Shown here one piece after another: positions 4,840 to 29,459 of a DNA stretch of 64,000 nucleotides; positions within the stretch are counted from its first letter, which is position 1; the number at the start of each line of letters is the position of its first letter. Made by a program: the position numbers and the translations under genes. Source of the stretch: Prostheceraeus crozeri (lineage: Eukaryota > Platyhelminthes > Polycladida > Euryleptidae); contig CAJQUW010007812.1 of assembly GCA_907163375.1 (NCBI GenBank), positions 80,642 through 144,641 of the forward strand. Reading direction: 5' to 3'. Below the pieces are notes generated by a model. It was not told the DNA's origin and did no database searches. It saw nothing but the letters and a program-made list of their open reading frames with translations.

Positions 4840-4857
4840 TCTATCATCTCTGTTCAA

Positions 4858-9880: not shown

Positions 9881-10012
9881 ATTTCTCAAATCTTCATCGT
9901 GGTTAATGAATCAAATTTTCACCGCAGATATAATTGCATATAGGCTCAATGAGTAACGATCTAAAAAGACTACTTTTTAGAAAACATGAACAAGTTGTAT
10001 TGATAGGCATTT

Positions 10013-11150: not shown

Positions 11151-12598
11151 TTACAATTTATCTACTGCTTTGCACTCAGATGAACACTCAATTGTAGAGA
11201 ACATCTGCTTCACGCATTTATGAATAAAAGGCATTTCAGTGTAAAGAGCTGTGACTTCCCACTCAAACATTTGAAAGGAAACAATGTATGAAAGAACAAA
11301 CAGCTGCTACACCCACTTAGACATTTGTAAGACGTGGAATATATAACCAGCAAATCCTACTCCGGCTGCAATGCCGTGTAACAATACACAACAACAATAA
11401 TCGATATGGCTATTTCAAACAATTGTGCTGAAGACTTATTTAATTTAACAGTGTTTCTTGTCAGTGAAGGTTGTGTCAAAACGCTCTCGTCATATATTTC
11501 TCAAAATGAGACAAGATCAATTTGAAGATAGAAGAAAACAATCGTTGCCAGGGAGGATGAAAAAATTACGGGAGGAATTGGAGAGGCATGAATTTACAGA
11601 TTCTTGGAGTGATTTCATAGAGCCAAATGGTGGAGAGAATAATACAATTGTAAACTAACACAAATTCTTGTTACATGAAAAAAGAAACAATTCACTCAGT
11701 GTTATGTGTAAAATTTTTATCGGTAAGCACATCAACTATCTGCTCTCTGTTTGTGATGATGACAAGTCTTATTTTTATAGTCTCTTGAAGCAAAATCATA
11801 TCAATTATTCACGCACCGAAGTTTCATTTGCAATGAGATTAGGTAAATTAGCAGACAATTTTCCTATGCTTTGTAGGGTGTCTAATTCTATCGTACTTTT
11901 AAAGTCACGACCTAACGTTATCGGAAGATTGACTTCATTGTGTAAAGCAATTATGTGACATTCCAAATGATTCCATTCTTCTCCCAAACAATGGTGCGTC
12001 ATTTAGCGACAATACCGCGCTGACATATTCAATGGAATTTGGATGTTAAACTCCGCTATTGTTATTGCGATACGGCCGCACGACACTTTATTTTCAATGT
12101 TAGACCTATGCCATTTCATTATATTCTCTTGAATAATGGTGCGCCATTCAGCTAAAATACTGCGCCATTTAACTAATCAAATCAACGCGTTAACATTAGA
12201 CGCGCTGTGAAGAAAATTTATCATTCTTGAAACCCCTCTGTTTTATATGCAATGTAAATACAATAGAGTCTTTCAACCAATTAAAACGTGTCCACCCGTG
12301 GACAGAAATCCCATTGTTTAGAAAACTTGTATCTGTCTGTTTTATATGCAATGCTATTTCCTGTTTTATATGCAATGTTATTTCCTGATGTAACCAAATT
12401 GAATGTATGCAAAGTGGTTGTAACCAAATTGAAATAACCATGTGTTGTTTTTAATTACACATTTACGGGAATATAAAAGAAACATTTTGTCTTCTATAAA
12501 AATGAGAATGAAAATGAAAATGATATCTACGAAATTCTATTTAAATCGAAATTCAGAAGATTGTATTCAAAATATTTATTCAAAATATTTCTTTAAAA
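11151..12598 (+). other. Left subterminal region of the type B Polinton; weak open frames and short repeats
   Basis: Two adjacent plus-strand frames, 11458-11658 (66 codons) and 11668-11958 (96 codons), have no recognisable domain; the second has a plausible helical, hydrophobic C-terminal half. They could be a decayed early gene. From 12235 to 12440 the phrase 'ctgttttatatgcaatg' recurs three times and 'gtaaccaaattgaa' twice, and 'gtgcgccatt'-like phrases recur from 11990 to 12170. Composition is less AT-rich than the gene block to the right. Nothing firmer can be said. Confidence 0.3.
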
Positions 12599-13306
12599 AT
12601 GGAAGAAACAAAAATGGAAGAAACCGCAAGAATATATCCTTCGTTATCATATGAACGTAGTTCTACTTTAATGGACATTGAAAAAATGAACAAAGAAAAA
12701 CACAAAGATAGAGTTAGGTATATGAAAGATAAGGAATCTCAATTATTATTAAGATTAGAGCATTATAAAAAATTAAGAAAGAGATGGACGATAGCTAAGA
12801 ATGTAACACAAGGCGTTGGAGCATCTTTAACAATAAGTTTAGGCGCTCTCACTATTGTTATATCTTCTGGTGTTTTAGTAATTCCAGTAGTTGCTACAGC
12901 TTTAACAGGTACGGGTGTTTTTGCAACTTCACTTGTTACAATGTTAGATAAATCTTTAATAACTAAGAAACGAAAATCATTAAAAACTAAGCATTTACAC
13001 ATTAAAGAAGTCTATGATAAACTACATTACTACTTTCAAAGAGTATGTGATGATAATGTTATTACGTTAGATGAGATTGAAAAATTTGATCAAATAGCTA
13101 ATGAAGTAAATCAAACCTTTCAATTACAGTCCGAAAAAGTTGATGATAAGAATAAACAGGATGGCAAAATTTCTAGTGATGGTAAAATTTCTAATGAAGA
13201 AAATGACAAATTTTTTTTAGAAGAGCTAAAAACTTTAAGCGAAAATTTAAGCAAAACTTTATTAAACAAAACTTTATTAAACAAAACTTTATTAAACAAA
13301 ACTTAA
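12599..13306 (+). CDS. Small membrane protein with a hydrophobic hairpin
   Basis: A 235-residue protein from ATG 12599, which is preceded by a T-rich tract and 'ttaaaa'. The N-terminal about 70 residues are charged and helical. A long hydrophobic stretch (about 72-115, containing GASLTISLGALTIVISSG and a Gly/Thr-rich second half) looks like two membrane spans or one hairpin. A charged helical domain follows. The C-terminus is a tandem repeat (NKTLL three times) encoded by repeated 'aacaaaactttatta', probably a recent expansion. No family is recognised. It could insert in the virion or host membrane. Confidence 0.6.
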   Translation: MEETKMEETARIYPSLSYERSSTLMDIEKMNKEKHKDRVRYMKDKESQLLLRLEHYKKLRKRWTIAKNVTQGVGASLTISLGALTIVISSGVLVIPVVATALTGTGVFATSLVTMLDKSLITKKRKSLKTKHLHIKEVYDKLHYYFQRVCDDNVITLDEIEKFDQIANEVNQTFQLQSEKVDDKNKQDGKISSDGKISNEENDKFFLEELKTLSENLSKTLLNKTLLNKTLLNKT

Positions 13307-13427
13307 AACGAGAAAACTTTAAACGAAAAGATGTCAGACAACAAAGCAATAAAAAAATAATTTGTACAGTAAAATGTTTTTGCTGTATTCCAATGTTACC
13401 ACAAAATTCAAATATTATATTTTAAAA

Positions 13428-14273
13428 ATGGATAAAATTAGAGCTGATAATTTTAAAAGAATAAAACAATTAGAAGAGTTAATAAAACAAAGAAATATTA
13501 TGAAAGAAAATCATCTTCAACATAGAATGATAAAAGCTGGTATTCAATCTGATATGTTTGAAAAAATGCAGCAAACCGAGCAAGTAAAAACTGATTTTGA
13601 GAAAACTATGAAACCATTTAAAACTCTTGAAAAAGAAAGTACAAATAATGATAAACAAATTGATATAACAGATCCAGAGCACAAAACTATATTAGATGAC
13701 TATGAATTACTAGAATCAAACATTAATAAGAAATTACCAAAATCTATGCAATTTGAACATTCTATTTCATTTATAGATGGAAAAATAATACCTAGATTTT
13801 ATCTCGGACAAAAAGAAATATTTCCACAACCTTTTCGAGGTTTAATTTTTTCACCAGATAAATCTCCTTTTAATTTAGATAGAAATTTTGTTAATCTTTT
13901 AAGAGGAGCAGCTTTAAATAATTATGCTGTAGAAGATCTTATAAAATATAAAGCTATGTTAGATAGAGTTGGTGCAGTAAAATCTCTAAGACGTTATAAA
14001 CAATTAGAAAATTTATTATCAACGGGAGTTAAAGTAGGAAAAGGTTTATCTGAAAAACAGAAAACAGAAACAACCATATTTTTACCAGATGATCCACAAG
14101 AATTACTAAATAGATTAAATATTCTAATATCTGCAATAAAAGAAGGACATAATTCTAGTTTCAATAAAATTCATGCTATATTGAAAAGACTGTTAGAAAA
14201 AAAGATTCTAAATGAAGAGGATTATAAAAGTATAACGGGACATCGGAGATGTCTTCCAGGGCTTCGCCCGTAG
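13428..14273 (+). CDS. Conserved Polinton protein of unknown function, hairpin-encoded C-terminus
   Basis: A 281-residue protein from ATG 13428, chosen because the 'attttaaaa' motif precedes it; the frame is open from 13362. An N-terminal coiled coil (about 1-60) leads to a globular domain with FIDGKIIPRFYLGQ and a proline-rich FPQPFRG motif, then a helical C-terminal half. The last about 12 residues (HRRCLPGLRP end) are encoded by a GC-rich double hairpin at 14239-14269, and the stop is just after it. The native protein may have ended differently. Function unknown; the position beside penton-like and ATPase genes suggests a virion or packaging role. Confidence 0.55.
   Translation: MDKIRADNFKRIKQLEELIKQRNIMKENHLQHRMIKAGIQSDMFEKMQQTEQVKTDFEKTMKPFKTLEKESTNNDKQIDITDPEHKTILDDYELLESNINKKLPKSMQFEHSISFIDGKIIPRFYLGQKEIFPQPFRGLIFSPDKSPFNLDRNFVNLLRGAALNNYAVEDLIKYKAMLDRVGAVKSLRRYKQLENLLSTGVKVGKGLSEKQKTETTIFLPDDPQELLNRLNILISAIKEGHNSSFNKIHAILKRLLEKKILNEEDYKSITGHRRCLPGLRP
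14239..14269. repeat. GC-rich double hairpin inside the C-terminal codons
   Basis: GACATC-GGA-GATGTC followed 5 bases later by GGGC-TTC-GCCC. Both arms are perfect with 3-base loops, in a strongly AT-rich gene. Confidence 0.9.
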
Positions 14274-14334
14274 CTGAAATATGTTGTTTCTAATTTTTTT
14301 ATAAAAAATATTTATTTAAAATTTTAACTAAAAA

Positions 14335-15138
14335 ATGTCTTCGAGAGAATTATCATCAGCAGATTTAGACAAAATTAATAATCATTTAGAAAATTTGACA
14401 GAGATTTTGGGTTCATCAAAATTTAGTACGACGTTAAAAATTATAACAACTACTTCATCACACACTTGTAATTTAGAACCCATTCTACATTTAGAACAAA
14501 ATAAAAATTATCAAATTGCATTGACTAGTTTCTCCACATTTAACACTATTCAAAATGTTATAAAAGTTGTAAATGATCAATTTAGATATTCTACTGATAA
14601 AGGCAAAACGTGGAAAGTACTAACTTTTCTTCCTGGTTCTTACGAAGTTGAATCAATATCAAATGAAATTAAAAGACATTTAGGTATACCATTTAAAGAT
14701 AAGAAACAATTACATTTTGCAGTTGAACCGGCAGTTAATAAATTTTCTCTTACTTTAGACGAAAATCATCAAGTTGATTTTAATCATGATAGATCATTGT
14801 CAAAGCTATTAGGATTTAATAAACAAACCTATAGTCAAGGTTATCATTTAGGTGAGAAGATTCCAAAAGTAACTGAAATAAATTCAATTGTTGTACATTG
14901 TGACATTATTGAAGGAGGATATATAAATGGTAAATTATCAAATTTAATATTCAGTTTTCCAGCTCTTACTGTACCCATTGGTTATAGATTAAATGTAATT
15001 CCACAAACATTAATATATTTCCCTATTACAAGAAAAACTATTAACAACATTAACATTAGAATCACTGATGAAAAAGGACAAGAAATAAATTTTGGAGGTG
15101 AAGAGATTATCATAGATCTTTTGGTTCGGGAGGTATAA
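14335..15138 (+). CDS. Penton-like minor capsid candidate (type B Polinton)
   Basis: A 267-residue intact protein from ATG 14335, with 'aactaaaaa' just before the start. A beta-rich pattern is visible: LKIITTTSSHTCN and FSTFNTI strands, then LTFLPGSYEVESISNEIKR, then LSKLLGF, then SIVVHCDIIEGGYINGK and a late strand-rich region. The LPGxYxVxSI...LGF layout is shared with the plus-strand protein at 72-860. The family is recurrent in Polintons and related animal elements beside capsid genes, so a penton role is the best inference; there is no direct proof. The C-terminal codons run into another GC-rich palindrome (15129-15143). Confidence 0.55.
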   Translation: MSSRELSSADLDKINNHLENLTEILGSSKFSTTLKIITTTSSHTCNLEPILHLEQNKNYQIALTSFSTFNTIQNVIKVVNDQFRYSTDKGKTWKVLTFLPGSYEVESISNEIKRHLGIPFKDKKQLHFAVEPAVNKFSLTLDENHQVDFNHDRSLSKLLGFNKQTYSQGYHLGEKIPKVTEINSIVVHCDIIEGGYINGKLSNLIFSFPALTVPIGYRLNVIPQTLIYFPITRKTINNINIRITDEKGQEINFGGEEIIIDLLVREV

Positions 15139-15229
15139 ACTCCTACGCGAAGCTAGAGAACTTTAATTTTCTTCTTCTTCTTTAGAAACAAAAAATAAAA
15201 AAATAAAAATAAATTTATTTTATTAAAAA

Positions 15230-16002
15230 ATGAGTGAATTACCTCCATTTAATAAAAAAAAACTTAAATTTAATCATCATCCAAATTTATCTAATAAAGT
15301 TTTGTCAGTTATTTGTGGAAGATCAGGTTGTGGAAAAACGTATCTATTGTTTAAAATTTTAACGACTCCAAATTTTTTGGATTATAACAATCTTATAATT
15401 TATACAACAACAGCAGAACAACACGTCTATCAATTTATGAAATATGGATTTGAAAATAATCTTATAAAACAGCAATTGCTTCATTATTCAAAGAATATGA
15501 AAAATCTGAAGATGAAGAAGAAATAAGTTCGTGGTGTGAAGAAGCAGCAAAAAATAATCAGTTAGTAGAATCTAATAAAAATAAGCATATAAAGATACAA
15601 TTAATAGATGATAGTGGTAATATGCAAGATCCTAGTAAACTAGATAAAACAATGAAACATTGTGTAATTTTTGATGATTGTGTTAATGATAGAAATCAGT
15701 CAGTTCAGAGAAATTATTTCACAAGAGGTAGACATAATAACTGTAGTGTTTTTTATTTAACACAAAGTATGTATTCATTAGACGGAAGTGTTATTAGAAA
15801 GAATGCAAATATATTTATACTATTTGAAATAAATGCAAGAAACTTAAGTGATTTGTTTAGAGATTTATGCGTAAGAAATAAAGATGAATTTAAACACTCG
15901 TGTAACAATGCTTGGTCAAAAGATTATGGATTCATTACAATTAATATTGATAAAAAAATTCATGAGAGTTATAGAAAATATTTTCGCGGAGTGACCGAAT
16001 AA
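15230..16002 (+). pseudogene. ATP: FtsK/HerA-type genome-packaging ATPase, frameshifted
   Basis: The enzyme would pump element DNA into capsids. The first frame (15230-15526) holds the P-loop GRSGCGKT (about 15319-15342); the second (to 16002) holds Walker B VIFDDCVND and FYLTQSMYS, a sensor-like motif typical of A32-like packaging ATPases. The switch is a -1 shift near the A-run at 15463-15485. The related fragment at 7681-8169 has the same shift. Either the mutation is older than both copies or the shift is tolerated by frameshifting; I see no clear slippery heptamer in the zero frame. The 'ttattaaaaaa' motif sits on the start codon. Confidence 0.85.
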
Positions 16003-16044
16003 TTTTTTCTTATAAATTTTTTGTTAATAAAAATTAAAAAAAAT

Positions 16045-16374
16045 ATGTTGAATGATTATAAGATAGAGCATGTACCAGTTTTAAAAGATTATCGTCATCC
16101 TACAAATCCTGTAAATTCGAAGAAAGAAGTTAGATTTTATTATCATCATAAATACGTAGCGCTCGTTACGGATTATAAAGCAAAACATGGTATTAAACCG
16201 TGTGTTAAAACAAAAGACTTTCCACTTTGTTTAAGAAGTTTCCGAGTATTTTTGGCGTATAATAATTTATGGTGGTTGGTTAAGAAAGAACATTTAACAG
16301 CACATGAATTAGAAACATTACATCAATTACATATTCCTGTGTATATGCAAAAACGGAACCGAGGTTCTATGTAA
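16045..16374 (+). CDS. Small protein of unknown function
   Basis: About 109 residues from ATG 16045 (the frame is open to 16021), 40 bp after the ATPase. Basic, aromatic-rich (RFYYHHKYVALV, YNNLWWLVKKEH) with an apparent alpha/beta pattern and no recognised motif. The last codons overlap a small hairpin, GAACC-GA-GGTTC at 16356-16367. It sits between packaging ATPase and polymerase, so it may be a packaging or replication accessory. Confidence 0.5.
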   Translation: MLNDYKIEHVPVLKDYRHPTNPVNSKKEVRFYYHHKYVALVTDYKAKHGIKPCVKTKDFPLCLRSFRVFLAYNNLWWLVKKEHLTAHELETLHQLHIPVYMQKRNRGSM

Positions 16375-17743
16375 AAATTAATTTTTTCTTTTAAAAAACA
16401 TGAATCGTGAAATGTCTCTCGGACAAACGTCTAGGTTTGATGAATTAATCAAGAAACAAACTGCTGAGTTTGATGCGCAAATTAAACATAGTAAACGTAG
16501 TAAACGTATTAAAAAACAGAAACGTACTAGGCGTAGTATTAGACGTAATACTAAAAAAACAGAAAAGTGGAACAAAAGAAATATTAGAAACTCCTATTAC
16601 TGATATCTTTTTTGATGATAGAATTAAGGATGAACTTGGTGATGATTTATGTAATTTATTTAACCCAAATGAAATTAAATATGAAAATGTATCTTTTATT
16701 AATGTAGTAAATGATATGCGGAAACTTTTAGCAAATGGTAAAATTATTAATTTACTTGGAAAAGTTATTAAAGATCAGGAAAATATAATTCAAAAATTTT
16801 ACGTAACCTTCTATAATAAAAAATCATTTGAAACATGGTTTTCGAATCTGGATGAGAAATCCGATGCTAACGAATGGATTTTTACAGGTAATATTAAATA
16901 TGAAGATTTTGGAATGAAGTTAGTACAAAGATCGCATAGAGGGGCAGGGATTAATATGAAATATAGAATCAAAGAATATTTCGGTGAATATTGTTATATT
17001 CCTTCTGAAGATTTTTGTTTTATTAAATGTTATAATGTTTTACGAGGTTTTAATGAAGAACAAGGAGAAATGATGAAAGAAATGTTTAATAATTTTTTAT
17101 ATAAAGAGAAAGCCACATCTAGAACAGGAGTAATGTCAAACTGCAAATTTTCTCAATTCAATAAATATTTTGGAGAATGCGTTCAATATTATAGTCCTGC
17201 CAATCGTCATTTAAATCCTAGAGGAATTGAAACGTTTCATAATTATGTTTATTACAATTATTTTCACGCAGGTTCAACAATTGGTCACTATTGTTTAATT
17301 AATAAATCTCATATATTAAAAGCTATTAGAGAAATTGAAAATAATTTCAAACCCATATACAAAACAGTTACTGATGAAAATCTAACAACGCGTCCATATA
17401 AAATCATAACAAAGAAAAAAATTGACTATGGTTCAACATATATTTGGGATCTCGAAACTTTTCCCGATCCTAACTTTTCAACAGCTCATCCTATTCCTTA
17501 TGCTGTAGGAGCTATTAATTTTAATAAATTTATATGTTGTTTACCGAAACAAAGATTGAAGGAATTAGAAACACGTTTGTTAAGTGATATGATTAAAATT
17601 AAACGATCAAAAGATGAAGATGAAATTAAAAAACTTAAAAAACAGATTAATGAGTATAATAATTTAACTGAATTAGAATTTAATAAACCTCAAAATTGTG
17701 TGAAAATATTTACGAGAACTGAGGATGATGAATGTTCAATCAG

Positions 17744-17767
17744 GGGAAACCCAGAGGACGTATGTCC
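17744..17767. repeat. GC-rich hairpin pair in polymerase B
   Basis: GGG-AAA-CCC then GGAC-GTAT-GTCC, in frame between exonuclease motifs I and II. The encoded residues (RGNPEDVCP) interrupt an otherwise AT-biased, Asn/Lys-rich stretch. Confidence 0.65.
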
Positions 17768-18484
17768 GATCCATCAATTTTTTAAAACTCTTGGAAAATT
17801 TAATTATTCGAGAGTAACTTTAATAGCTCACAATTCATCAGGTTTTGATTCCTATTTTCCGATAAAAGCTAATTTTAAATTATCTAAACCGCCTCTTAAA
17901 ACTTCAAGAGGAATATTGTCTGCTTCATTACAAAATCCTTATACAACTGAATGTGTTAGTAGATACATTCAAAAATCTTTTAGATTTAAAAACAATATGA
18001 AAAAAGATTCACCTTCAGGTAAATTAGCACTTCAAACTATTATAATGAAATGTAGTTATCAACATGTAAAAACAAGTCTTTCTAAATGGTGTGAGAATTT
18101 TAAAATTCCTACGAATGTGTGTAAATTAAATTATGAAATTGGAGACATAACACATGAAAATTATGAAGAAAAAGAAAATGAATGGAGACCATATTTAGTT
18201 AACGATATTCTTTCCTTAGCTTTTTGTATCTACAAATATAATAATGTTATGCGAGATTTAGTTGGTGAAGATATAACTACTAATTTAACATCCTCTGCTT
18301 TAACATTTAACGGTCGGATGAAAAGCGTACAAAATGACAATATAAATATTCATTCTCATATAGATTTATGGGCTAGAAATTATATTAGAAAATCTGTTAA
18401 AGGTGGAAGAGTTTCAGCAAATATAAGAAAATACATATCGCCATTTTGTAGCATCTTGTTACCAATATTAAAACAGTGTTTACC

Positions 18485-18549
18485 TGGTCGCTGCGCTGGG
18501 GGGACTTTGTCCCTTGGTCGCTACGCTGGTGGGGCTTTGTCCCCTGGAA
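18485..18549. repeat. Duplicated GC-rich hairpin insertion in polymerase B
   Basis: Two tandem versions of 'ggtcgct-cgctgg' plus a hairpin (GGGAC-TTT-GTCCC at 18501-18513, then GGGGC-TTT-GTCCCC). It encodes a Gly/Arg-rich insertion just upstream of polymerase motif A and keeps the frame open. Confidence 0.9.
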
Positions 18550-19949
18550 GTAATTTAATAGATTTAATGAAACAGTATCGAGATTTAGGAGATAAAACTG
18601 AAATTTGTAAGAAAATTTCAAATCAACTACTTGAACAAAAAAATGAATTTCTAATGGCTTTTGATGCAACATCTTTATATCCATCAGCTATGTATGATGA
18701 AAATTCAGAATACCCTAAAGCTGAATCAGCTAGAAAATTTCGTCAAGAAGAAGAGCGGGAAATAGTATATAAATTTAATACTCAAACATTTAGACCTAAA
18801 ACTGGAATATTCTCTGTTGTGTTTCAATATCCGAATGATATGTTTTTCCAACCAGTTCCTATAAAAGATAAAGTTAAAAATCAAAATAATAATTCTCATG
18901 TAAAAGTAATCAGGTTTAGAAATGGTATATGTTATGATGTATTAACTTCTGTAGACATACAAGAAATTGTTAGATGTGGGGGAAAAATCTTACATATTAC
19001 TGATGGTATAATTTATGAAAAAAATTATCAAGTTTCACCATTTCGAAATTATATTGAAAAACTTTTTAATTTGAGAAAAAGATATAAAACAGAAGGAAAT
19101 ACTGTAGGTGATGAGTTAATTAAATTATTGATGAATTCCGCTATATGGCAAAATTGTGCAAAAAGATATAACCACTAAATATCATTTATGGAATGAGAAT
19201 ACATTGAGAAAAAATTTCACTCAAGAAGTAAAAGATTATGAAAAATTAAATGATGAACAATATTTAGCGAAAGTAGAAATGGAAGATGATGAATTTCTCA
19301 AAACTAATATTTTTAAAAGATGGGAAGACGTCATTCATGCCATCACACTTAGGTTCTTTCATTCTTTCTCACTCTAGAAGAATCATGAATAACTTTATTT
19401 TAGAAATTAATGGTTTCAAAGAAAAATACATTCATTATACAGATACTGATTCAATATATATTTCCAATGAGCTCTTTAATAAATTAGACGCTGCTGGATA
19501 TGTTGGAGGAGAATTGTGTCAAGGGAAAAAATGATTATGGAAATGGTGGAATTATTTTTGCAATGTTTATTGCACCTAAAGTAAAATACTGTATTACTGT
19601 GGATGAGCAAGGGAGACTTAGTGAAAAGAAAACATTCAAAGGATATTCACAAGATAAAGTAAAAGTAGAAGATTTTCTAAAATTATATTCGGGGAAAACA
19701 TTATCGACTACAGTTAATAAACCATGGAAAAGATCTTTAGAAACTGGAATTAGTATTCCTGATAAAAATAATAATACTGAAGAAAAAAAATTTTCTGGTC
19801 AAATAAATATTCTTAAACGTCAAGCACCTGATGAAAATGAAATTATGTTACCTTATAACGGAGAAGATATTCAAGCTGAAATATTTCAAACAATCATGTG
19901 TGAGAGTAATTTAAGTGATGATGATGACACGTGGGAATAATAATTTTTT

Positions 19950-20080
19950 TATTACATCTAAAAATTTTATAACATCTAAAAAATTTATAACATCTAAAAA
20001 ATTTATAACATCTAAAAAATTTATTACATCTAAAAACTTATTACATCTAAAAATTTTATTACATATGAAAATATATTTAT
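19950..20080. repeat. AT-rich tandem repeat between convergent genes
   Basis: About seven copies of an 18-19 bp unit 'acatctaaaaaatttata' with small variations. It lies between the ends of polymerase B and the minus-strand gene at 20117-20764. It could act as a shared 3' region. Not CRISPR: there are no unique spacers. Confidence 0.85.
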
Positions 20081-20116
20081 CGAATATTTTGGTATTTTCT
20101 ATTAAGTTTTATCATA

Positions 20117-20764
20117 TTAAGTTTCATCATATAATGTTTTATCAAAAGATAATTTAAATTTATTTTCACTAACTATTGATTCTTCATCATCATCATCAAT
20201 TGATTCTTCATCATCATCATAAATTGTTTCTTCAACATCATAAATTACACTTTTTGGTATAGGATGCCCACCCATGATAGGATACCATTCTCTTATTGGA
20301 ATATCTAATTCTAAATTACATCTTTTATCTGATAATAATATAATAGAGAAAAATATTGGTCTTTGATCTCTTTTGGAAAATTTAATAACACCACCATAAT
20401 CTGAATCACTTTTAGTTTTTATTAAAGATGATAAAATTTTAAATTGATTAGATGTAAATCCTAATTTAAATTTTGTAGACCTGACACATAGTTGTCTAAC
20501 AGTATCTTCAACTATACCATCATTATTATTTTCAATTGTAAGAAAATGAAATTTAGATAAATTTTTATAATTACTAATATTTTTATAATCTTTTTTACCA
20601 TTTACACCATTTTCAGATGTTTCTGAATCATCATCTATATTATCATCATCTATATTATTATCATTATTATCATAAGATTCTTTAAGATCGGGCAAAGCCC
20701 TAGAACCTTCGGTTCGTTTATTATGATTATGGTCATTGTTAATAGTATAAGGTGTTGTCCACAT
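20117..20764 (-). CDS. Acidic protein of unknown function
   Basis: A 215-residue minus-strand protein. An N-terminal low-complexity Asn/Asp-rich region (about 28-55) is followed by a compact domain of about 110 residues (from KFHFLTIENN to the PIREWYPIMGG motif), then a Glu/Asp-rich repeat tail (DDDEESI twice) encoded by 'tcatcatcat' repeats. Near the N-terminus a double hairpin (20690-20715) encodes TEGSRALPD. No family recognised. It is transcribed opposite to the capsid block, like the neighbour upstream. Confidence 0.5.
   Translation of the reverse strand: MWTTPYTINNDHNHNKRTEGSRALPDLKESYDNNDNNIDDDNIDDDSETSENGVNGKKDYKNISNYKNLSKFHFLTIENNNDGIVEDTVRQLCVRSTKFKLGFTSNQFKILSSLIKTKSDSDYGGVIKFSKRDQRPIFFSIILLSDKRCNLELDIPIREWYPIMGGHPIPKSVIYDVEETIYDDDEESIDDDDEESIVSENKFKLSFDKTLYDET
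20690..20715. repeat. GC-rich double hairpin in the N-terminal codons of the acidic protein
   Basis: GGGC-AAA-GCCC, two bases, then GAACC-TTC-GGTTC; perfect arms and 3-base loops. Confidence 0.95.
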
Positions 20765-20838
20765 ATAAATTTTCTCTTGTTGAGCTAAACCATTTATATA
20801 AGATTTAAATAAATTAATATTTAAGTTGGAATATAATC

Positions 20839-21435
20839 CTATATACGTATCATCATCATATCTTGGGGCATTTCTAATGTTTCTTGTTTATAAATTGTGT
20901 CTCTATAATAAACTAGACATAATAATTCTTCATTATGTTTTTTACTCTCTATGTGAATGTTATATTGATTTTGTTCATCAACAAATAATCTAATTTTTTC
21001 TTTGGAAAAAGATTTTAATTTTTTAACTAATTCTCTAACATTAATATAATTAATAATTTTATTTTCTATCCATTCAGTATTACTAATTGGTAACACTGCT
21101 CTAATAAAACCATAAACATTATTATGACCTATTATAACCATATTTTCTTTATTTAATTCAACATAAGCTACATCATTATATTTACTTACAATCTCCATAA
21201 ATTTTATAAATGGATCACCTGGAAAAATACAATAATTAGTTTCTATAGAAGGTAAACCTTTTGTTTGTTCTCTAAATATTTCGGCTTGTAATTCGAATAA
21301 AAGATTTACATCTATACATGGATTATTATTATTATTATTATCAAAACATTTATTTTCAAATCCCGTTGATCTCGTCGAATAAGAAGAACAGGATGATGCG
21401 GACGAATATAATTTTTTTAAATTTGGTTTTTCCAT
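20839..21435 (-). CDS. Protein of unknown function with N-terminal Asn tract
   Basis: A 198-residue minus-strand protein with ATG at 21435 preceded, on its strand, by a long A/T tract ending in 'taaaaaatgg'. After a Ser-rich start and an Asn run (length-variable 'attattatt'), a domain of about 140 residues alternates strands and helices (FIKFMEIVSKYNDVAYVELNK, NMVIIGHNNVYGFIRAVLP). No family recognised. It diverges from the fibre-like gene at 21549; the 110 bp between them is extremely AT-rich and may hold both promoters. Confidence 0.5.
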   Translation of the reverse strand: MEKPNLKKLYSSASSCSSYSTRSTGFENKCFDNNNNNNPCIDVNLLFELQAEIFREQTKGLPSIETNYCIFPGDPFIKFMEIVSKYNDVAYVELNKENMVIIGHNNVYGFIRAVLPISNTEWIENKIINYINVRELVKKLKSFSKEKIRLFVDEQNQYNIHIESKKHNEELLCLVYYRDTIYKQETLEMPQDMMMIRI

Positions 21436-21548
21436 TTTTTATTTTTATTAGAAAAAATTTTATTTTTTTATTTTTTATTATTTTTATTAGAAAAGAAATA
21501 TATTTTTTTCTCATTATATAAAAAAATTACTTTTTTATTGTCTTAAAA

Positions 21549-22436
21549 ATGATGTTACCAAATGTTGGTGGAGGTGCATATATCCCGAATAATCGTGAAT
21601 TAGAAATAGAAATAGAAAATTATATTATGAAAACTGGAGACGTTTTATCTGGTCCATTGCATCTTTCTATTCTTCCGCAACAAAATACAGAGTTAACAAA
21701 TAAACAATATGTTGATACACAAATCAATGACTTAAAAGAAAAATATATAAACGATGTTTTGGTTCCACTGATGAATGAATTGAAGTTGCTTAAACTTAAT
21801 GACAAATCATTAAACGAAAAATTATTAAAACTTGATAAAAAGGATAGAGAGCTAGAAGCAGATATAGCAAAACTTTTTAAAAAGATTTCTGAACAATCAA
21901 AAATTTTAATATTACTTTCTATAAAGTTAAAATCTGCAGTCATTAAAAATAAACATCAGATACAACTATTGAAAGAACAATTAGAAGATGAAATAGAAAA
22001 ACTACCTGAAAGAATTAAAAAAAATTTAAAGCAGTTACAAACTACATTCCAAAAAAGTGTTGATGAATTAAGTTCTAAAATTACTCAACAAATGAAAAAG
22101 ATGAATAGAATAATAAATGAAGTAAACTCGCTTAATCAAAAAGTTGATAAAATGAAAACTCTTAAAATCAATTTAGAAAATGAATTAAAGAAAAATTTAC
22201 AAGAAAACTCTAAAGAAAATAAAGAACAGTTAGATGCTGTTAAAAGACAATTAGATGTTCTTAAAATTAAGTAAAATGCACTTAAAACGGCATTGAAGAT
22301 TAATCAGCAGAAAATGCAAGTTAACAGAAAAGAAATTAAAGTACATCACACGCTGCTTGACGCAATAGATAAAGTGCAACAGTCAATTAATAAAGTTATC
22401 TCGAAGTTGTTGTCCATTCACAAACGTAAATCTTAA
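21549..22436 (+). pseudogene. Fibre-like protein: phage tail-fibre motif plus long coiled coil, frameshifted near 3' end
   Basis: From ATG 21549 (a second ATG directly follows), residues about 27-62 read KTGDVLSGPLHLS...TELTNKQYVDTQI, close to the GDxMTGxLxL...ATKQYVD motif of phage tail-fibre and collar proteins. The next about 180 residues form an almost uninterrupted coiled coil. The main frame stops at 22272-22274, but a second frame continues the same Lys/Gln-rich heptad pattern to a stop at 22434-22436, so one frameshift lies near 22270. A trimeric attachment fibre, functionally like an adenovirus fibre, is the inferred role. It precedes the capsid genes directly. Confidence 0.65.
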
Positions 22437-22478
22437 CACGTAGATATTTTTCCTAAAAGTCAAATTTAATCTTAAAAA

Positions 22479-23045
22479 ATGCCTATAATTTATAAACACA
22501 ATCTTAAACATTTTGCTTCAAATCAAAAAATTTCTCATGAACCATCTATGAAATCTGTTTACCATTATGACAGTGTAGAAACAATCGGAACACAAAAGTT
22601 CCTAGGCACCGCAGCTGCCGTCAAAAAAGAAGGGGATGGTATATTTTCTGGTATTGGAAGTATCGTTAACTTAATTAAAAATAATAAAGATTTGATTACA
22701 TCTGCTGCAAAAGGAGCAGCTGCTATAGGTAGTACAGCTAGTGCAATATCAAATGCTGTTAAGTCTCAAAACGAATTAAAACAACTAGAAGCTATTCGTA
22801 AACTTAGGAATGATTCTGAAAAACTAAAAAATTTAAAAAAACTTTCAGAGGAAACAAAAAACAAAATTTCTAACATAGCTGTAGGGGAAACCTTGAGGAG
22901 CGGAGCTCCGTCTGATAGTAAACATAAGAAGAAATCAGGCGTAGCCATAAAACGTTCAATTGAAGAAATAAGAGGCAATGGTATTAATAGCAACCTTCGG
23001 TCTAACCAGCAAAGCTGTAGCGGAGCTGGTCTAGCAAAATTCTAA
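22479..23045 (+). CDS. Minor capsid/core-like protein
   Basis: A 188-residue protein 43 bp after the fibre gene, with 'atcttaaaaa' on the start codon. The middle (about 50-95) is a Gly/Ala-rich hydrophobic segment (GIFSGIGSIVNLI and a SAAKGAAAIGSTASAIS run) followed by a charged helix of about 50 residues and a basic tail. That layout resembles adenovirus-type minor virion proteins with membrane-active segments. The C-terminal about 30 codons contain GC-rich palindromes (22897-22910 and 22992-23033), so the tail may be repeat-derived. Confidence 0.5.
   Translation: MPIIYKHNLKHFASNQKISHEPSMKSVYHYDSVETIGTQKFLGTAAAVKKEGDGIFSGIGSIVNLIKNNKDLITSAAKGAAAIGSTASAISNAVKSQNELKQLEAIRKLRNDSEKLKNLKKLSEETKNKISNIAVGETLRSGAPSDSKHKKKSGVAIKRSIEEIRGNGINSNLRSNQQSCSGAGLAKF
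22897..23033. repeat. GC-rich palindromes in the minor capsid tail
   Basis: GGAG...CGGAGCTCCG at 22897-22910, and at 22992-23033 a set with CAGC-AAA-GCTG (23007-23017) enclosed by CCAGC...GCTGG. Both are in frame and encode Gly/Ser/Ala-rich tail residues. Confidence 0.75.
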
Positions 23046-23134
23046 AATATATTTTTAGTAAATTTATTTTAGTAAAATTTTTTTAGTAAATTTTTTTAGA
23101 CTAATAAAAAAAAGACAAATTATTTTTTATAAAA

Positions 23135-24502
23135 ATGTCTTCGCTTATCGAAAAAAAATTTAGATTAGACGATCCTCCGTTCGTCAGTTATAATCAAAAA
23201 AAGAATGACTATATAAGAATTGCTATGAATCCCGGATCTTCCAGTAGAGTGAATACTGGTGGTGATTTAATTTTTGAAGTTGATAATCAACAAAGTTATT
23301 TATATCTACCTGATTCATTTTTACACTGTGAATATTCTTTATATAGTGATGCCAATTTTACAACACCATTACCAGATACCGATAATATTGCACTAGAGAA
23401 TAATTTTTTTCCAAAATTATTTACACAAATGCGTTTAGATGTTGCAACTCAAAATATAGAAACAATAAGTGATTCTCCAGGTGTAATTGATACAATGCTT
23501 AGATTTGTAACAATTGGTGAAAATAATAAAAAGTATGAAATCGAAGGTTGGTTTCCTGATACTAATGATGGTATAATTGTTGATGATTTAACTTACGCTG
23601 GAACAGATGCAGCAGGAATTGCGAAAGATGTAGAAAATATTGCAAAACATTTAAATAAAACAAATAATGATGCATATAAAGAAAGACGTGAATTTAACAA
23701 GAAAAGTAAACAGACAGTTAATTGGTCATTGTCTCCATTATTCGGATATTTAGATTATGATAAAATATCATATCAATTAAAATTTAAATTAATAATTCAT
23801 CGTACAGCAAATAATGAATTAATCTTTTTTGGTAAGACTGGAAAAAAAGCATATTTAAAAATTGATAGACTTGAATGGTGGATTAAGCATATTACTCCTA
23901 GTTTAGAGATTGAAACAGCTATTGCAAAAAGATTAAATACTAACAAACCAATTCCAGTTAATTTTCTAAAGCGTACTGCTAGTTCAGTAACTTTTTCCGA
24001 ACAAAGATTTAACTGGCATTTTACTAGAACTGCGAATACTCCAAGATATTTATTACTAACTTTTCAAAGAAATAATTCTCCAAGTTTTGATAAAAACAAC
24101 AATCTTTTTCATATTAATACAATTCGAAGTTTACAAGTTTCATTAAATCAAACCCGATATCCAATTGATCCATTAAGATTCGATGATACCAATAATCAAT
24201 TTATGGAAGGATATGATTCTTATCGAAATCTTTGTATAGAATTTGGAGTTGAACCACAATTAACTCCTGGAGATTGGAGACATTTATATCCTGTTTTCTG
24301 TTTCGATTTAAGTGCACAATCTGAAGATATTATCAAGACTGGTTGTGATGTAACAATTAATATTGAAAAGAAAGATTCCACAACTTCATTAATGGCTTAT
24401 GGTTTATTGCTAGAATATTTATTGCTAAATATTCTATTGAAATTCTTAATGGAAAGATGGCTAGGATCGGCTAAAGCCTCTGAACAAAGTTCTATAGGTT
24501 AG
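23135..24502 (+). CDS. Major capsid protein candidate (double jelly-roll)
   Basis: A 455-residue protein from ATG 23135, the largest beta-rich protein of the capsid block and of suitable size for a Polinton major capsid protein. Features are an N-terminal strand region (DLIFEVDNQQSYLYLPDSFL), repeated aromatic strands (EGWFPDT, NWSLSPLFGYLDYD), and a central WWIKHITPSLE segment typical of this family's linker. The last about 30 codons look disturbed: 'tttattgcta' is duplicated, and an alternative frame runs to a TAA inside the first GC hairpin. The present C-terminus (GSAKASEQSSIG) is hairpin-encoded. The family call rests on size, fold pattern and context. Confidence 0.65.
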   Translation: MSSLIEKKFRLDDPPFVSYNQKKNDYIRIAMNPGSSSRVNTGGDLIFEVDNQQSYLYLPDSFLHCEYSLYSDANFTTPLPDTDNIALENNFFPKLFTQMRLDVATQNIETISDSPGVIDTMLRFVTIGENNKKYEIEGWFPDTNDGIIVDDLTYAGTDAAGIAKDVENIAKHLNKTNNDAYKERREFNKKSKQTVNWSLSPLFGYLDYDKISYQLKFKLIIHRTANNELIFFGKTGKKAYLKIDRLEWWIKHITPSLEIETAIAKRLNTNKPIPVNFLKRTASSVTFSEQRFNWHFTRTANTPRYLLLTFQRNNSPSFDKNNNLFHINTIRSLQVSLNQTRYPIDPLRFDDTNNQFMEGYDSYRNLCIEFGVEPQLTPGDWRHLYPVFCFDLSAQSEDIIKTGCDVTINIEKKDSTTSLMAYGLLLEYLLLNILLKFLMERWLGSAKASEQSSIG

Positions 24503-24554
24503 TAACCTTAGGACCTTTGGTCCGATCGGCTAAAGCCTCGAGGAGCTTCGCTCC
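24466..24554. repeat. Cluster of six GC-rich hairpins at the capsid gene 3' end
   Basis: In order: GGCT-AA-AGCC (24469-24478), GAAC-AAA-GTTC (24482-24492), GGTTAGTAACC (24497-24507), GGACC-TTT-GGTCC (24511-24523), GGCT-AA-AGCC again (24528-24537), GGAGC-TTC-GCTCC (24542-24554). The capsid stop codon lies within the third. A nearly identical block occurs at 25223-25266. Confidence 0.95.
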
Positions 24555-24559
24555 GATAA

Positions 24560-24728
24560 GTTAATTAAAATTTTTGTTAACTTAAAATTTTGACAACTAT
24601 AATAGATTTAAAATTTTTGTTAACTTAAAATTTTTCATAACTACAATAGATTAAAATTTTTTGGTAACTTAAAATTTTTTCATAACTAGAATAGATTAAA
24701 AATTTTGATAACTTAAAATTTTTTTATT
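24560..24728. repeat. AT-rich tandem repeat upstream of the second minor capsid gene
   Basis: About three and a half imperfect copies of a roughly 55-bp unit 'taacttaaaatttttcataactacaatagat'-type, ending in the 'ttattaaaa' motif on the next start codon. Probably leader or promoter DNA. Confidence 0.8.
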
Positions 24729-24732
24729 AAAA

Positions 24733-25215
24733 ATGTCGCAAGCGAAAAGTAATAATAATAAAACTGTTGAATTAAAATTACGTAATATTGTTGACAAAAA
24801 TACCCCTAAAACTATTACGATTAACAAAAAAAAGTATTACATAAGTAAACCAATGATAGAGAATATTCAATTACAAGAAGAAAAGAATGGTGGAATTCTC
24901 CCATTAATTCCACTAATAATAGGTGGCATAGCTGCAGCAGGAAGTGTTGCAGGTGCGACAGCTGCTATTGTCCAAGCAGTAAATAAAAATAAATCAGAGA
25001 AGGCAGCATTAGAAGAACAAAAACGTCATAATAGAGAGTTAGAGAAAGTTGCTAGGGGTGAAGGAGTAGTAGATAATTTTATTAGTAAATTAAATTTAGT
25101 TGATGAAGGAAAACGAGTTCTTAAAAATATTCTCCACAATGTTGATGATTTAATTGAAATTAAAGAAACTAAAGATGGTTCTGGAATATATCTAAGTCCT
25201 AGTATGATTCGGTAA
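24733..25215 (+). CDS. Minor capsid-like protein with a Gly/Ala-rich hydrophobic segment
   Basis: A 160-residue protein from ATG 24733. Residues about 52-85 form a Gly/Ala/Ile-rich hydrophobic stretch (GGILPLIPLIIGGIAAAGS) followed by a charged coiled coil and an acidic C-terminus. GG-led hydrophobic segments of this kind recur in small Polinton and adenovirus virion proteins with membrane-active function, so it is a second minor-capsid candidate. The start carries 'tttttattaaaa'. Its stop is followed within 10 bp by a GC hairpin block. Confidence 0.5.
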   Translation: MSQAKSNNNKTVELKLRNIVDKNTPKTITINKKKYYISKPMIENIQLQEEKNGGILPLIPLIIGGIAAAGSVAGATAAIVQAVNKNKSEKAALEEQKRHNRELEKVARGEGVVDNFISKLNLVDEGKRVLKNILHNVDDLIEIKETKDGSGIYLSPSMIR

Positions 25216-25222
25216 TAACCTC

Positions 25223-25266
25223 AGGACCTTTGGTCCGATCGGCTAAAGCCTCTGAACAAAGTTCTA
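25223..25266. repeat. GC-rich hairpin block, second copy
   Basis: GGACC-TTT-GGTCC, GGCT-AA-AGCC, GAAC-AAA-GTTC; the run from 25238 repeats the run from 24466 almost base for base over about 34 bp. It lies between a stop and the next start codon. Confidence 0.95.
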
Positions 25267-25314
25267 TTAGGTAAAACATTTATTTTATCTTTTAAATTTT
25301 TTTTATCTTTTAAA

Positions 25315-26604
25315 ATGAATTCTACAAATTCCGAAAATTTAATTAAATTAAAAATTGCTAATTTAGATTTATTAAATTATCTATTAAACAAAAATAAAAA
25401 CTCAAATTGTCAGCATATTGGAGGTGACATACAAAAAACATTAGAAAACTTTCCTGGATTTATTTGGAGTAAATATTCGAAAGAAAAACATCTTCCTGGT
25501 CATTCATATACCGGTCCAGGAACTCGATTAGATATAAGACTAGATGAGAATAATAATCCGAAACCAGGTGAAGAACCGATAAATAGAGTAGATGCCGCCG
25601 CTTACAGGCATGATTTAGCTTATCGAAATCATGATCTAAGTTCTCGACATGCAGCTGATAAGAAGATGATACAAGAATTAGATAGTATTCAAAATCCTAC
25701 ATTTAGAGAAAAAATTGAAAGAATGTTTGTTAAGAAAGCTTTACAAGCTAAAATATTATTCGGTCAGGGTTTAAATGAACTGACAGCAAAGCTGTCTGAG
25801 AGCAACGCTCGAACCTACGCGTCTGAAATTCATAAAGAATACAGAAGGCCTAAATATTTATTGAAAGTAAAAGTATTTAATAAAGATGATATTTGGAGTG
25901 CTGATCTTATTCATATGCCGAATGAAAAAGATTATAAATACGCATTGACCGTTATAGATTTATATACACGATACGCTTGGGTAAAGCCTTTAAAAAATAA
26001 AAGTGGTCTTTCAGTTAAATATGCGTTTGAAGAAATCTTTAAAGAAAGTAATAGAAAGCCAAGGAAATTGTTTGTTGATAAAGGATCGGAATTTTATAAC
26101 AGAAACGTTCAGCCACTATTTGAAACTGTTTATTCAACTGAAAACGCTGGAAAAGCTGTAGTGATAGAAAGATTCAATCGGACGTTAAAAAATAAATTAT
26201 TCAAGAAATTTACTGAGCAAAGAAATCAGAAATGGTTGAAGATATTACCAGGAATTGTAGAAGAGTACAATAATAAAGTTCATTCTGGTATTGAAGAAAC
26301 TCCAAAGAATGCTTCTGACGACCATGATTTAATACGAAAGAAAATATTCGAGACTAATTATTCGAATGAGAGTAATCCGAATTTGCAGAAACTTAAGCCG
26401 AAATTTAAGATTGGAGATAGAGTTAGAATATTTAAGTATAAGAATAAATTTGAAAAAGGCTTTGTTGGTTATTGGACTAAAGAGATATTTGAAGTTTGTA
26501 AAATAAACCAAACTTATCCGATTACTTACGAAATCAAAGATTTAGATGATGAAAATATCAGAGGCCGATTTTATCAAAATGAATTACAACGAACTGATTT
26601 TTAA
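25315..26604 (+). CDS. INT: Phospholipase A2-integrase fusion protein
   Basis: A single intact 429-residue frame. Residues about 50-150 match a parvovirus-VP1-type phospholipase A2 domain: calcium loop YTGPGT (65-70), catalytic RHDLAYR with His99-Asp100, and a later Asp/Lys helix. Residues about 190-330 are a retroviral-type DDE integrase: Asp197 (SADLIH), Asp255 (FVDKGSEF), Glu285 (IERFNRT). A C-terminal SH3-like segment (GDRVRIFKYK to RGRFYQNEL) follows; there is no chromodomain. The linker contains a GC-rich double hairpin. In life the lipase would act on endosomal membranes during entry and the integrase on element DNA, so fusing them is odd. Both catalytic sets look intact. Confidence 0.9.
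   Translation: MNSTNSENLIKLKIANLDLLNYLLNKNKNSNCQHIGGDIQKTLENFPGFIWSKYSKEKHLPGHSYTGPGTRLDIRLDENNNPKPGEEPINRVDAAAYRHDLAYRNHDLSSRHAADKKMIQELDSIQNPTFREKIERMFVKKALQAKILFGQGLNELTAKLSESNARTYASEIHKEYRRPKYLLKVKVFNKDDIWSADLIHMPNEKDYKYALTVIDLYTRYAWVKPLKNKSGLSVKYAFEEIFKESNRKPRKLFVDKGSEFYNRNVQPLFETVYSTENAGKAVVIERFNRTLKNKLFKKFTEQRNQKWLKILPGIVEEYNNKVHSGIEETPKNASDDHDLIRKKIFETNYSNESNPNLQKLKPKFKIGDRVRIFKYKNKFEKGFVGYWTKEIFEVCKINQTYPITYEIKDLDDENIRGRFYQNELQRTDF
25782..25810. repeat. GC-rich double hairpin in the phospholipase-integrase linker
   Basis: GACAGC-AAA-GCTGTC (25782-25796) and GAGC-AAC-GCTC (25800-25810), encoding residues about 156-166, between the two domains. Confidence 0.95.
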
Positions 26605-26641
26605 TTATCATTATTATCATTATTATTGGAACTAACGTTTC

Positions 26642-26687
26642 GGGAATGAAATTCCCTTGTTAGGCGTAGCCATAGAACCTACGGTTC
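26642..26687. repeat. GC-rich hairpins between integrase and protease genes
   Basis: GGGAAT-GAA-ATTCCC (26642-26656) and GAACC-TAC-GGTTC (26675-26687). The second overlaps the protease stop region on the minus strand. Confidence 0.9.
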
Positions 26688-27134
26688 GTTCAATTCTAAC
26701 ACAATATCAAGAAATGGTACTCCTTTTTGTAATTTAAATAAAACATAAAGACATAATTGACCACAGTAAGTAGTTCCCGGTTTTTGAATTTGAAATGTAT
26801 CATAAGTTCCATTTTCAAGTAATTTTTTAACTTCGTTTGTAGGTGGAAGACCGTATGAGTCAAAATAGTAATTATCTCCATTTTTATTAGTCATACCTGC
26901 AGACCAATGTACACCTTTTTCATCTGACGTATGAAGATTTGTTATGAAATTTACAGTTTGAACTTTGTTCCGGGAACTGAAGGTTCCTGTTGGCTTATTT
27001 TTTACGAATTGTAATTCGTCTCTCATTAGAACATGAAAATTCTTTATTCCTAATTGATTTGCAATTTTCTTTAGATCAAAATTTGTAGTTGTTTGCGTTC
27101 CATATAATTTTAAAAACTCATTTATGTTGTTCAT
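26679..27134 (-). CDS. PRO: Adenain-like cysteine protease
   Basis: A 151-residue minus-strand protein; ATG 27134 is preceded on its strand by 'ttattataaa'. It would mature virion proteins. Catalytic elements of the adenovirus/Ulp1 protease group are in order: His in VHWSAG (about 26915), Asp in YFDSYG (about 26862), and the nucleophile in YCGQLCLYVL (about 26757). The length fits compact Polinton proteases. It is the only core gene at this end on the minus strand. A hairpin at 26973-26987 lies in frame near residue 50 (GTFSSRN), before the catalytic His. Confidence 0.85.
   Translation of the reverse strand: MNNINEFLKLYGTQTTTNFDLKKIANQLGIKNFHVLMRDELQFVKNKPTGTFSSRNKVQTVNFITNLHTSDEKGVHWSAGMTNKNGDNYYFDSYGLPPTNEVKKLLENGTYDTFQIQKPGTTYCGQLCLYVLFKLQKGVPFLDIVLELNEP
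26973..26987. repeat. GC-rich hairpin inside the protease gene
   Basis: GGAAC-TGAAG-GTTCC, in frame, placed in a loop before the catalytic His. Confidence 0.7.
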
Positions 27135-27309
27135 TTTATAATAAAAAAATTTCTTAAGGGACCCCTAGAAGTCTGAAGGGACCCCTAGAAGTTAGAAGGG
27201 AGGAGGTAGTAGAACTACGTTCACATGATATTGAAGGATATATTCTTGCGGTTTCTTCCACTTTTGTTTCTTCCACTTTTAAAGAAATATTATTAGACAC
27301 ATGATATAT

Positions 27310-27783
27310 TTTAAAAACCTGAAAGAAGGATAAAATTCATGAATTTGAAATTCTCAACTTTTATGATTTTCGGTGTCCTGGAACGGTCATGATTTTAAGG
27401 GGGGTAAAAATTGTAATTCTCAAATTTGAGATTCTTAACTTTTATGATTTTCGGTGTCCTGGAACGGTCATGATTTTGGGAGTAAAAATTGTAATTCTCA
27501 AATTTTGAGATTTTGAAAAATTTGAAAAATTGGGTATTTTTAAAAACGCCCAAATTTATGAATTTAGGTCTTCATAACCTGAAAAAGGGTTCAAATTCAT
27601 GAATTTATGTCGTTTTTAAAAATACCATTTTTTGTATTTTATGGTGTCCTGGAACGGTCTAAATTCATGTATTTAGGTCTTAAAAACCTGAAAAAGGGTC
27701 TAAATTCATGAATTTATGTCGTTTTTAAAGATACTATTTTTTTGAATTTTGTGGTGTCCTGGAACGGTCTTTTGCCCATTACT
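27310..27783. repeat. Right TIR of the type B Polinton
   Basis: Inverted match to 10633-11150, including repeated 'ggtgtcctggaacggtc' and the TAAATTCATGAATTTA palindromes. Just inside, at 27155-27205, 'agggacccctagaag' occurs twice, about 24 bp apart. Confidence 0.9.
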
Positions 27784-29234: not shown

Positions 29235-29459
29235 ATTTTCAAATCATGCATACGTCACAAAAGAGAACGAGTATTCAAAAATTCCATAGATATTGAAAGA
29301 GTGTTAACAGGATACAGACGAGAAACCGTTGAAAGAAAATGCTGAATCGAACACAATTTGTTTGAGAAAATCTTTTACGCATACTATTTATTAACCACGA
29401 TGAAGATTTGAGAAAGGACATTTGACAACAACTAATAATGGTGCGATGCTGACTGAATG

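Follow-up and report, generated by a model that had tools for sequence, protein, structure and literature searches.

The question raised by this locus is whether the paired, GC-rich palindromes scattered over an AT-rich Polinton of the flatworm Prostheceraeus crozeri are mobile modules or ordinary parts of its sequence. The Polinton, designated type B, lies in a stretch of 64,000 nucleotides (nt) of contig CAJQUW010007812.1 (positions 80,642 to 144,641), called the window here. A first-pass annotation of this DNA had likened the palindromes to Rickettsia palindromic elements (RPEs) and mitochondrial double-hairpin elements (DHEs). Our results support the comparison, since hairpins are present in some copies and absent from others at 11 of the 13 sites that could be anchored, although transposition by a dedicated mechanism goes beyond these data. 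We consider it likely, with a probability of roughly 0.78, that the hairpins are 27- to 38-nt mobile double-hairpin modules that behave like RPEs and DHEs in a multicopy nuclear Polinton and that their arrays form by tandem duplication and shuffling. Direct support comes from orthologous sites at which some alleles have hairpins and others lack them, exact empty sites, dispersal to other sites and to both strands, differences in tandem copy number, and a bias in reading frame.

Filled and empty sites among the Polinton copies

Alleles were compared as the sequence between fixed anchors in 28 genomic loci (L numbers) carrying the 27-nt double-hairpin string GGACCTTTGGTCCGATCGGCTAAAGCC and in four left-half pieces, and all counts include the window. 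L031 and L032 belong to the same copy, so that the 28 loci represent 27 copies, all of them of the type B Polinton (86 to 96% identity). The genome assembly of 2,048,925,868 bases (2.05 Gb) holds 2275 exact copies of GGACCTTTGGTCCGATCGGCTAAAGCC (1115 + 1160; reversed control, 0) and 2015 of the 30-nt hairpin unit of the DNA polymerase gene (PolB), many of the listed places lying in 30-nt steps. The Polinton itself is probably present in well over a thousand copies.

Ordinary conserved coding sequence would carry identical hairpins at identical codons in every homologue. The first-pass annotation had named this outcome beforehand, together with the comparison of orthologous sites with and without hairpins, and the opposite was found across copies within one genome (Table 1). 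Two of the 13 anchored sites have no empty allele, g5_C (16356; 4 of 4 alleles filled) and pol1 (17744; 5 of 5). The six alleles at 14239 comprise three empty ones (L047, L058, and L060), two with one unit (the window and L059), and one with two units (L057), and a 25-nt string spanning the empty junction has 2096 exact copies in the genome. At 22436, the window is empty and arrays elsewhere reach about 135 nt. L041 and L050 (86% identical) lack all three modules of 22883 to 23033 and have another hairpin-like GGGA..TCCC there instead. At 26627 to 26692, L043 has only the first module, L046 and L029 have only the second, and L039 to L041 have neither; the arrays at 25213 to 25269 are longer in L031, L042, L047, L053, L054, and L055.

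Five empty and filled pairs are exact, with inserts of 33 nt and a GTT repeat (L041 versus the window), 38 nt and a TA repeat (L047 and L060 versus the window), 31 nt and a GAT repeat (L055 versus L029, the single insert at the capsid 3′ site), 32 nt without a repeat (L055 versus L046), and 34 nt and a TT repeat (L046 versus the window). The sister copies L045 and L055, whose aligned segments are 90 to 99% identical, differ at 22436, at the 3′ end of the integrase gene, and in the number of PolB units (4 versus 3). On a capsid-gene tree of 19 rows, each of the nine scored traits needs 2 to 6 state changes.

Allele states were scored by sequence words, a rule of our own, because a strict counter of hairpins with three-base loops (triloops) finds none at g3, g5, atp, pol1, and pol_3p; the first four hold non-triloops or short stems, while pol_3p truly lacks a hairpin. 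Under the word rule, the unusual g13 allele of L050 (50 nt) and two int_3p alleles with another short stem count as empty, and the capsid 3′ end has hairpins in 14 of 24 alleles, versus 11 of 24 by the strict counter. Copies of the 27-mer that face each other as inverted pairs, with about 2.7 kb between them, had suggested a separate element, which we rejected: each such pair consists of sites 22436 and 25224 in a single Polinton copy.

Table 1. Hairpin sites and their carrier in the window, with allele states among the compared copies
Feature	Position	Strand	Observation
Double hairpin, C-terminus of second gene (g2)	14233..14272	+	38-nt insert, TA on both sides
Weak hairpin block over stop codon of third gene (g3)	15121..15155	+	5 alleles: L060 empty, L059 expanded
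Weak hairpin, 3′ end of small gene (g5_C)	16354..16370	+	Unchanged in 4/4 alleles
In-frame double hairpin in PolB (pol1)	17737..17773	+	In 5/5 alleles of the genome; second hairpin diverged in L050
Two tandem 30-nt in-frame double-hairpin units, PolB	18486..18545	+	Six alleles with 0/1/2/2/3/4 units
Double hairpin inside minus-strand gene	20684..20716	+	Filled in 11/14 alleles
Empty insertion site at gene 3′ end	22434..22440	+	Modules, in reverse orientation, in 15/22 alleles
Three hairpin modules, C-terminus of gene 22479-23045	22883..23033	+	Each in some copies: 13, 11, and 15 of 22 alleles
Double-hairpin module array at capsid gene stop codon	24465..24556	+	14/24 alleles filled, 10/24 without
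Array past stop codon of gene 24733-25215 (g11)	25213..25269	+	23 alleles: L049 empty
In-frame double hairpin, linker between PLA2-like and integrase domains	25778..25812	+	25 alleles, linker 39-123 nt
Two successive modules 3′ of integrase gene	26627..26692	+	12/21 alleles filled; modules single or paired
33-nt in-frame insert (11 codons), minus-strand gene 26679-27134	26956..26991	-	GTT on both sides; 9/20 alleles filled
Polinton type B, AT-rich, hairpin carrier	12577..27298	+	84-nt terminal inverted repeat, 94%; ends set by alignment

Structure, dispersal, and confinement of the modules

All hairpin loci listed in the first-pass annotation are present in the sequence, far above shuffle expectation. 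Positions 12600 to 27300 contain 15 perfect triloop hairpins (arms of at least 4, with at least 3 G/C per arm) versus 1.46 ± 1.33 (maximum, 7) in 50 dinucleotide shuffles, and 8 with four G/C per arm versus 0.12 (maximum, 2), while the remainder of the window is close to chance by the same criteria (6 versus 4.84 in 1 to 12000; 17 versus 14.48 in 28000 to 64000). Triloops prevail as described, except that the loop at 26973 to 26987 has 5 nt and that of the second hairpin at 17744 has 4 nt; the first hairpin of each unit at 18485 is imperfect. The hairpins at 15129 and 16356 are indeed weak, yet the former site lacks the block in one copy and has an expanded version in another. Placements within coding frames, at C-termini, and between genes all occur among the sites. 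A feature absent from the earlier description is the closure of the loop by 5′-C..G-3′, which 15 of the 18 GC-rich triloops with arms of 3 or longer show (expected, 0.57; 30 shuffles). Among 16 modules that we selected by hand, 8 have GNA/TNC loops, 7 have AAA/TTT loops, and 1 has another loop; covariation in the 16 hairpins is circular because they were picked for pairing, and we do not count it as evidence. GNA loops closed by C-G are what we take to be the loop class of extraordinarily stable DNA mini-hairpins. Such mini-hairpins are exemplified by d(GCGAAGC) in an excerpt of PMC10527192. RNA folding of the whole locus favours alternative pairings at 18485, 24466, 25223, and 26642, and Rfam at the gathering threshold returned no match, with no tRNA found.

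The same modules recur at different sites of the window. AGGGGAAACC is common to 17742 and 22883, AGCC.TAGAACCT.CGGTTCGTT to 20696 and 26668, AGGCGTAGCCATA to 22937 and 26662, and CAGCAAAGCTGT to 23007 and 25784, and GAACAAAGTTC occurs at 24482 and 25254 and reversed at 26960. The block that had been reported as repeated almost base for base is so at 31 of 31 nt (24465 and 25237) and 36 of 37 nt (24503 and 25216). Among the copies, the capsid 3′ end carries GGACC-TTT-GGTCC in 9 of 24 alleles and the next gene (g11) carries it in 20 of 23, and the 22436 site has the reverse complement of this hairpin in 13 of 22; sites 22938 (2 of 22 alleles) and 26662 (5 of 21) share an identical 30-nt module. 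The arrays are built with a first hairpin, GGCTAAAGCC or GGTTAGTAACC (and variants), before a second, which is GGACCTTTGGTCC, GGAGCTTCGCTCC, GAACAAAGTTC, or GACTTCGTC; the halves combine freely, and the modules are opened by GAT or TAT.

That the hairpins are confined to the type B Polinton holds in the window, where nine matches to a catalogue of eight module words lie within the element and none in the 49.3 kb outside, and it largely holds in the flanks of the fetched loci. These loci have 146 catalogue matches in 185.9 kb of DNA matching the Polinton, at least 56 of them present by construction because the string by which each of the 28 loci was selected itself holds two words, versus 2 in 61.2 kb of other DNA, both in L052. 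Generic C-closed GC-rich triloops are less one-sided, at 1.11/kb inside versus 0.49/kb outside, the latter figure having no shuffle control. A complete module, ATCGGAGCGAAGCTCC..GGCTTTAGCCGAT, stands at L052 817-845 in DNA without a match to the window Polinton, and the family therefore also occupies another left half or another gene. In six loci (L038, L046, L049, L051, L052, and L053), the match to the window ends at 20095 to 20101 and tblastn finds no PolB in the fetched stretch; they may be shortened forms or chimeras that have a different left half.

Beyond this genome, seven of eight scans of viral contigs (five by protein or alignment and two by hairpin pattern) gave no match, nor did tblastn of the protein of 22479-23045 against phages or a capsid alignment against genome contigs. 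An integrase alignment against the genome contigs (metagenome-assembled genomes [MAGs]) found 28 Polinton-type loci. The nearest, L001 (56% over residues 36 to 429; 27% GC), has 1 hairpin versus 1.1 expected, and AT-rich Polintons as such therefore lack these hairpins; most of the other 27 are near expectation and a few are above it, chiefly L019. This distant 29% match on a bacterial contig has 25 GC-rich triloops versus 13.1 ± 4.1, 12 of them with four G/C per arm, which is possibly a repeat family of its own.

Reading frame, mechanism, and alternatives

A single phase is common to 66 of the 70 allele lengths from five coding sites; phases are mixed in three 3′ spacers (g8, 8/7/7; capsid, 12/7/5; g11, 10/7/6). 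The linker at 25782 has a length that is a multiple of three in 24 of 25 alleles. The bias at the coding sites indicates that gene-breaking inserts were mostly not passed on and that the modules lived in working elements. Hairpin clusters tend to sit near stop codons, where inserts harm least (7 of 12 at a distance of up to 50 nt versus 1.64 at random; P = 0.0004), with the caveat that gene ends are partly set by the inserts.

Homologous proteins vary at the same places. The PolB protein P0041 (97% identity over 96% of the query) has the 17744 insert and one 30-nt unit versus two in the window, and the distant PolB proteins P0042 to P0044 all lack the 17744 insert; the 18485 unit is not recognisable in P0042 and P0043, and P0044 ends upstream of its position. 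Both domains of the PLA2-integrase protein are noted in 26 of 26 aligned relatives, with the hairpin in a linker whose length varies and which, in P0045 (the closest relative), is shorter. This linker is a low-confidence part of the predicted structure and is partly modelled as a helix, with blocks of predicted local distance difference test (pLDDT) scores of 48 to 63 over residues 151 to 190; the predicted PolB structure was poor (pLDDT, 43) and was not used. Capsid relatives P0001 to P0013 terminate soon after GRMVR or a variant of it, and the window stop codon matching their end is inside a hairpin loop. Sixteen 6-mer peptide words are shared across protein families, none of them convincing. 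Some PLA2-integrase relatives have extra peptides (MKSATPFYGG and MMKSSATPKGGG in two places in P0061; SATPKGGG in P0066), perhaps from another in-frame insert family in other Polintons.

We propose that a module, consisting of two GC-rich hairpins and a short linker, would enter a new place in a Polinton copy and that, at a gene 3′ end or in a loose linker with the frame kept, the copy would stay viable and spread the module. Tandem duplication after entry would then give arrays and halves would be exchanged, such that copies come to differ in their arrays at the same site. New sites would be reached by insertion, beyond recombination between copies, in what is presumably a DNA-level event. 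Strand-displacement replication is expected because the element has PolB, and this protein-primed process would expose long stretches of single-stranded DNA, where the stable hairpins of the types C-(GNA)-G and C-(AAA/TTT)-G may fold and be copied across. The modules probably do nothing for the Polinton. Such a replicator within a replicator, with non-coding palindromes of 27 to 38 nt inserting via a single-stranded stage of replication and adding in-frame peptides to the polymerase and the PLA2-integrase, has in our judgment an even chance of being correct.

The hairpins could instead be functional signals for mRNA 3′ ends, following the hairpin rule of Mimivirus and Marseilleviridae, with the internal copies as by-products. 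An excerpt of PMC5413956 documents palindromes as a signal at viral 3′ ends, and the clustering near stop codons and the capsid stop codon within a hairpin loop fit this explanation. We nevertheless find it quite improbable, since module-free alleles are common (10 of 24 at the capsid gene; 7 of 22 at the 22436 site; 9 of 21 at the integrase gene, two of these nine carrying other sequence with a short AGC-TTC-GCT stem), 5 of the 12 clusters have no stop codon within 100 nt, the PolB 3′ end has no hairpin in 4 of 4 alleles, and the gene ends that would define the signal are themselves partly defined by inserts. Conservation of ordinary coding sequence, or chance, could account for the two sites that are filled in every allele, but with the roughly 10-fold excess over shuffles and the variation at the other 11 sites it is extremely improbable and is already refuted by the empty alleles. 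An explanation without mobility, in which old hairpin minisatellites at fixed sites change by slippage, deletion, and recombination between Polinton copies, is unlikely in our view, though it accommodates the tandem units at 18485 (0 to 4) and the g2 C-terminus (0 to 2), the linker and 3′ arrays, the longer direct repeats in the linker, and the constant orientation per site. It leaves unexplained the identical modules at non-homologous sites and on both strands and the exact small empty sites, one of them with its 2096 empty junctions; the absence of the three 22883 to 23033 modules from L041 and L050 also speaks against it, tempered by the other hairpin-like sequence there.

Several observations weigh against the mobile modules that we favour. 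The state changes on the tree can be recombination, which may account for part of the allele differences, and only 3 of its 16 inner branches are starred. Orientation within a site is constant for the module words counted and is thus also compatible with a single ancient entry at each site and later recombination among the copies. Of the features of miniature inverted-repeat transposable elements and DNA transposons, short inverted ends (ATCGG..CCGAT and ACGGG..CCCGT) are present on some modules only, and direct repeats are 0 to 3 nt at the five exact inserts, too short to prove target duplication, and 0 to 11 nt in the 25782 linker, as expected from tandem duplication. We know of no enzyme for such movement. 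The fourth 3′ spacer, int_3p, which is partly coding for the opposite gene and overlaps its end, has phases of 13/6/2. Hairpin-poor copies are undersampled because the loci were found via a hairpin string, and the 664 exact genome copies of a single capsid-gene 27-mer, set against the 2275 of the hairpin 27-mer, are a control with one gene word of arbitrary conservation.

The host Polinton and known mobile palindromes

Membership of the host element among Polintons is indicated by its PolB, rve integrase, double-jelly-roll (DJR) capsid protein, and terminal inverted repeats; the domains found are DNA_pol_B_2, rve, Phospholip_A2_4, and a DJR-like capsid. Its GC content in 2-kb windows is 23 to 31% versus 33 to 44% in the rest of the window. 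The frames of the ATPase (15229-16002), PolB (16470-19940), and capsid (23135-24480) are interrupted, and the window Polinton is a decayed copy; homologous PolB and capsid proteins of greater length are present in the searched database. The open reading frame (ORF) 25315-26604 fuses a PLA2-like domain to the integrase, and both Pfam domains are found in most of the 120 relatives listed (of 1349). AT-rich tandem repeats with units of 43 to 44 nt and 18 nt occupy the 3′ spacers at 24567-24727 and 19948-20066, whose length differs from copy to copy. Around the Polinton there is a larger inverted-repeat structure (9353-29986), with 531-nt arms at 9353-9883 and 29456-29986 that are 99% complementary and a second inverted set near 10633-11119 and 27367-27783, so that the Polinton looks nested in, or carried by, a 20.6-kb element. 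Farther away, an ORF at 39896-40816 encodes a mariner-like transposase (DUF4817, with weaker HTH_Tnp_Tc3_2 and DDE_3 matches); a weak zf-AD hit was also obtained.

By analogy, the modules resemble RPEs, DHEs, GC clusters, and above all the small inverted repeats (SIRs) of placozoan mitochondria, and by membership tests they belong to none of these; the comparisons follow excerpts of the sources cited. The SIRs, 5′-GGVBCC-N3-GGVBCC-3′, share short GC-rich stems, a C..G-closed three-base loop, large families, indels in protein genes, and raised GC, but they are mitochondrial and classed by 6-nt stems, with no two-hairpin module in the excerpted description (PMC7813641). Loop length and C..G closure agree with those of the Polinton hairpins, whose stems are mostly 4 to 6 bp and of many sequences rather than 6-bp GGVBCC. 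The DHEs of Allomyces and Schizosaccharomyces likewise have two GC-rich hairpins per unit and are thought mobile, but they are mitochondrial and lie between genes or in rRNA genes (PMC10085805), rather than in protein frames; the modules here are in Polinton genes, and 28 of 28 fetched loci are in Polinton copies of the 2.05-Gb assembly. RPEs are palindromes within reading frames that stay intact, in exposed parts of proteins (PMC3767692), and insertion with the frame kept is likewise seen here; RPEs are, however, 100 to 150 bp long and bacterial, from rickettsial genomes, versus 27 to 38 nt (31 to 38 nt for the exact inserts) in a eukaryotic nuclear Polinton. Yeast mitochondrial GC clusters such as GC42 differ in being mitochondrial and mostly intergenic (PMC4478555), and merger and shuffling are common to GC clusters, DHEs, and the Polinton modules. 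The short palindromic repeats of Volvox have some nuclear copies, which their authors hold to be inert organelle transfers (PMC2670323). No report of such a hairpin family in Polintons or nuclear viruses was found among the titles and abstracts listed in searches of open-licence literature.

If the replicator-within-a-replicator reading is true, this would be the first mobile palindrome of the RPE/DHE type active in a eukaryotic nuclear virus or transposon and would rank with the smallest of the known mobile elements. Bacteria and organelles both have mobile palindromes, whose mode of movement has been hard to settle, partly because few systems show many empty and filled sites together. Here, one genome offers base-exact filled and empty sites, varied arrays, and coding as well as non-coding sites for comparison, so that target choice, direct repeats, gain versus loss, and effects on the reading frame can be counted directly. 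The family would also represent a route by which very small palindromes may add peptide segments to viral proteins.

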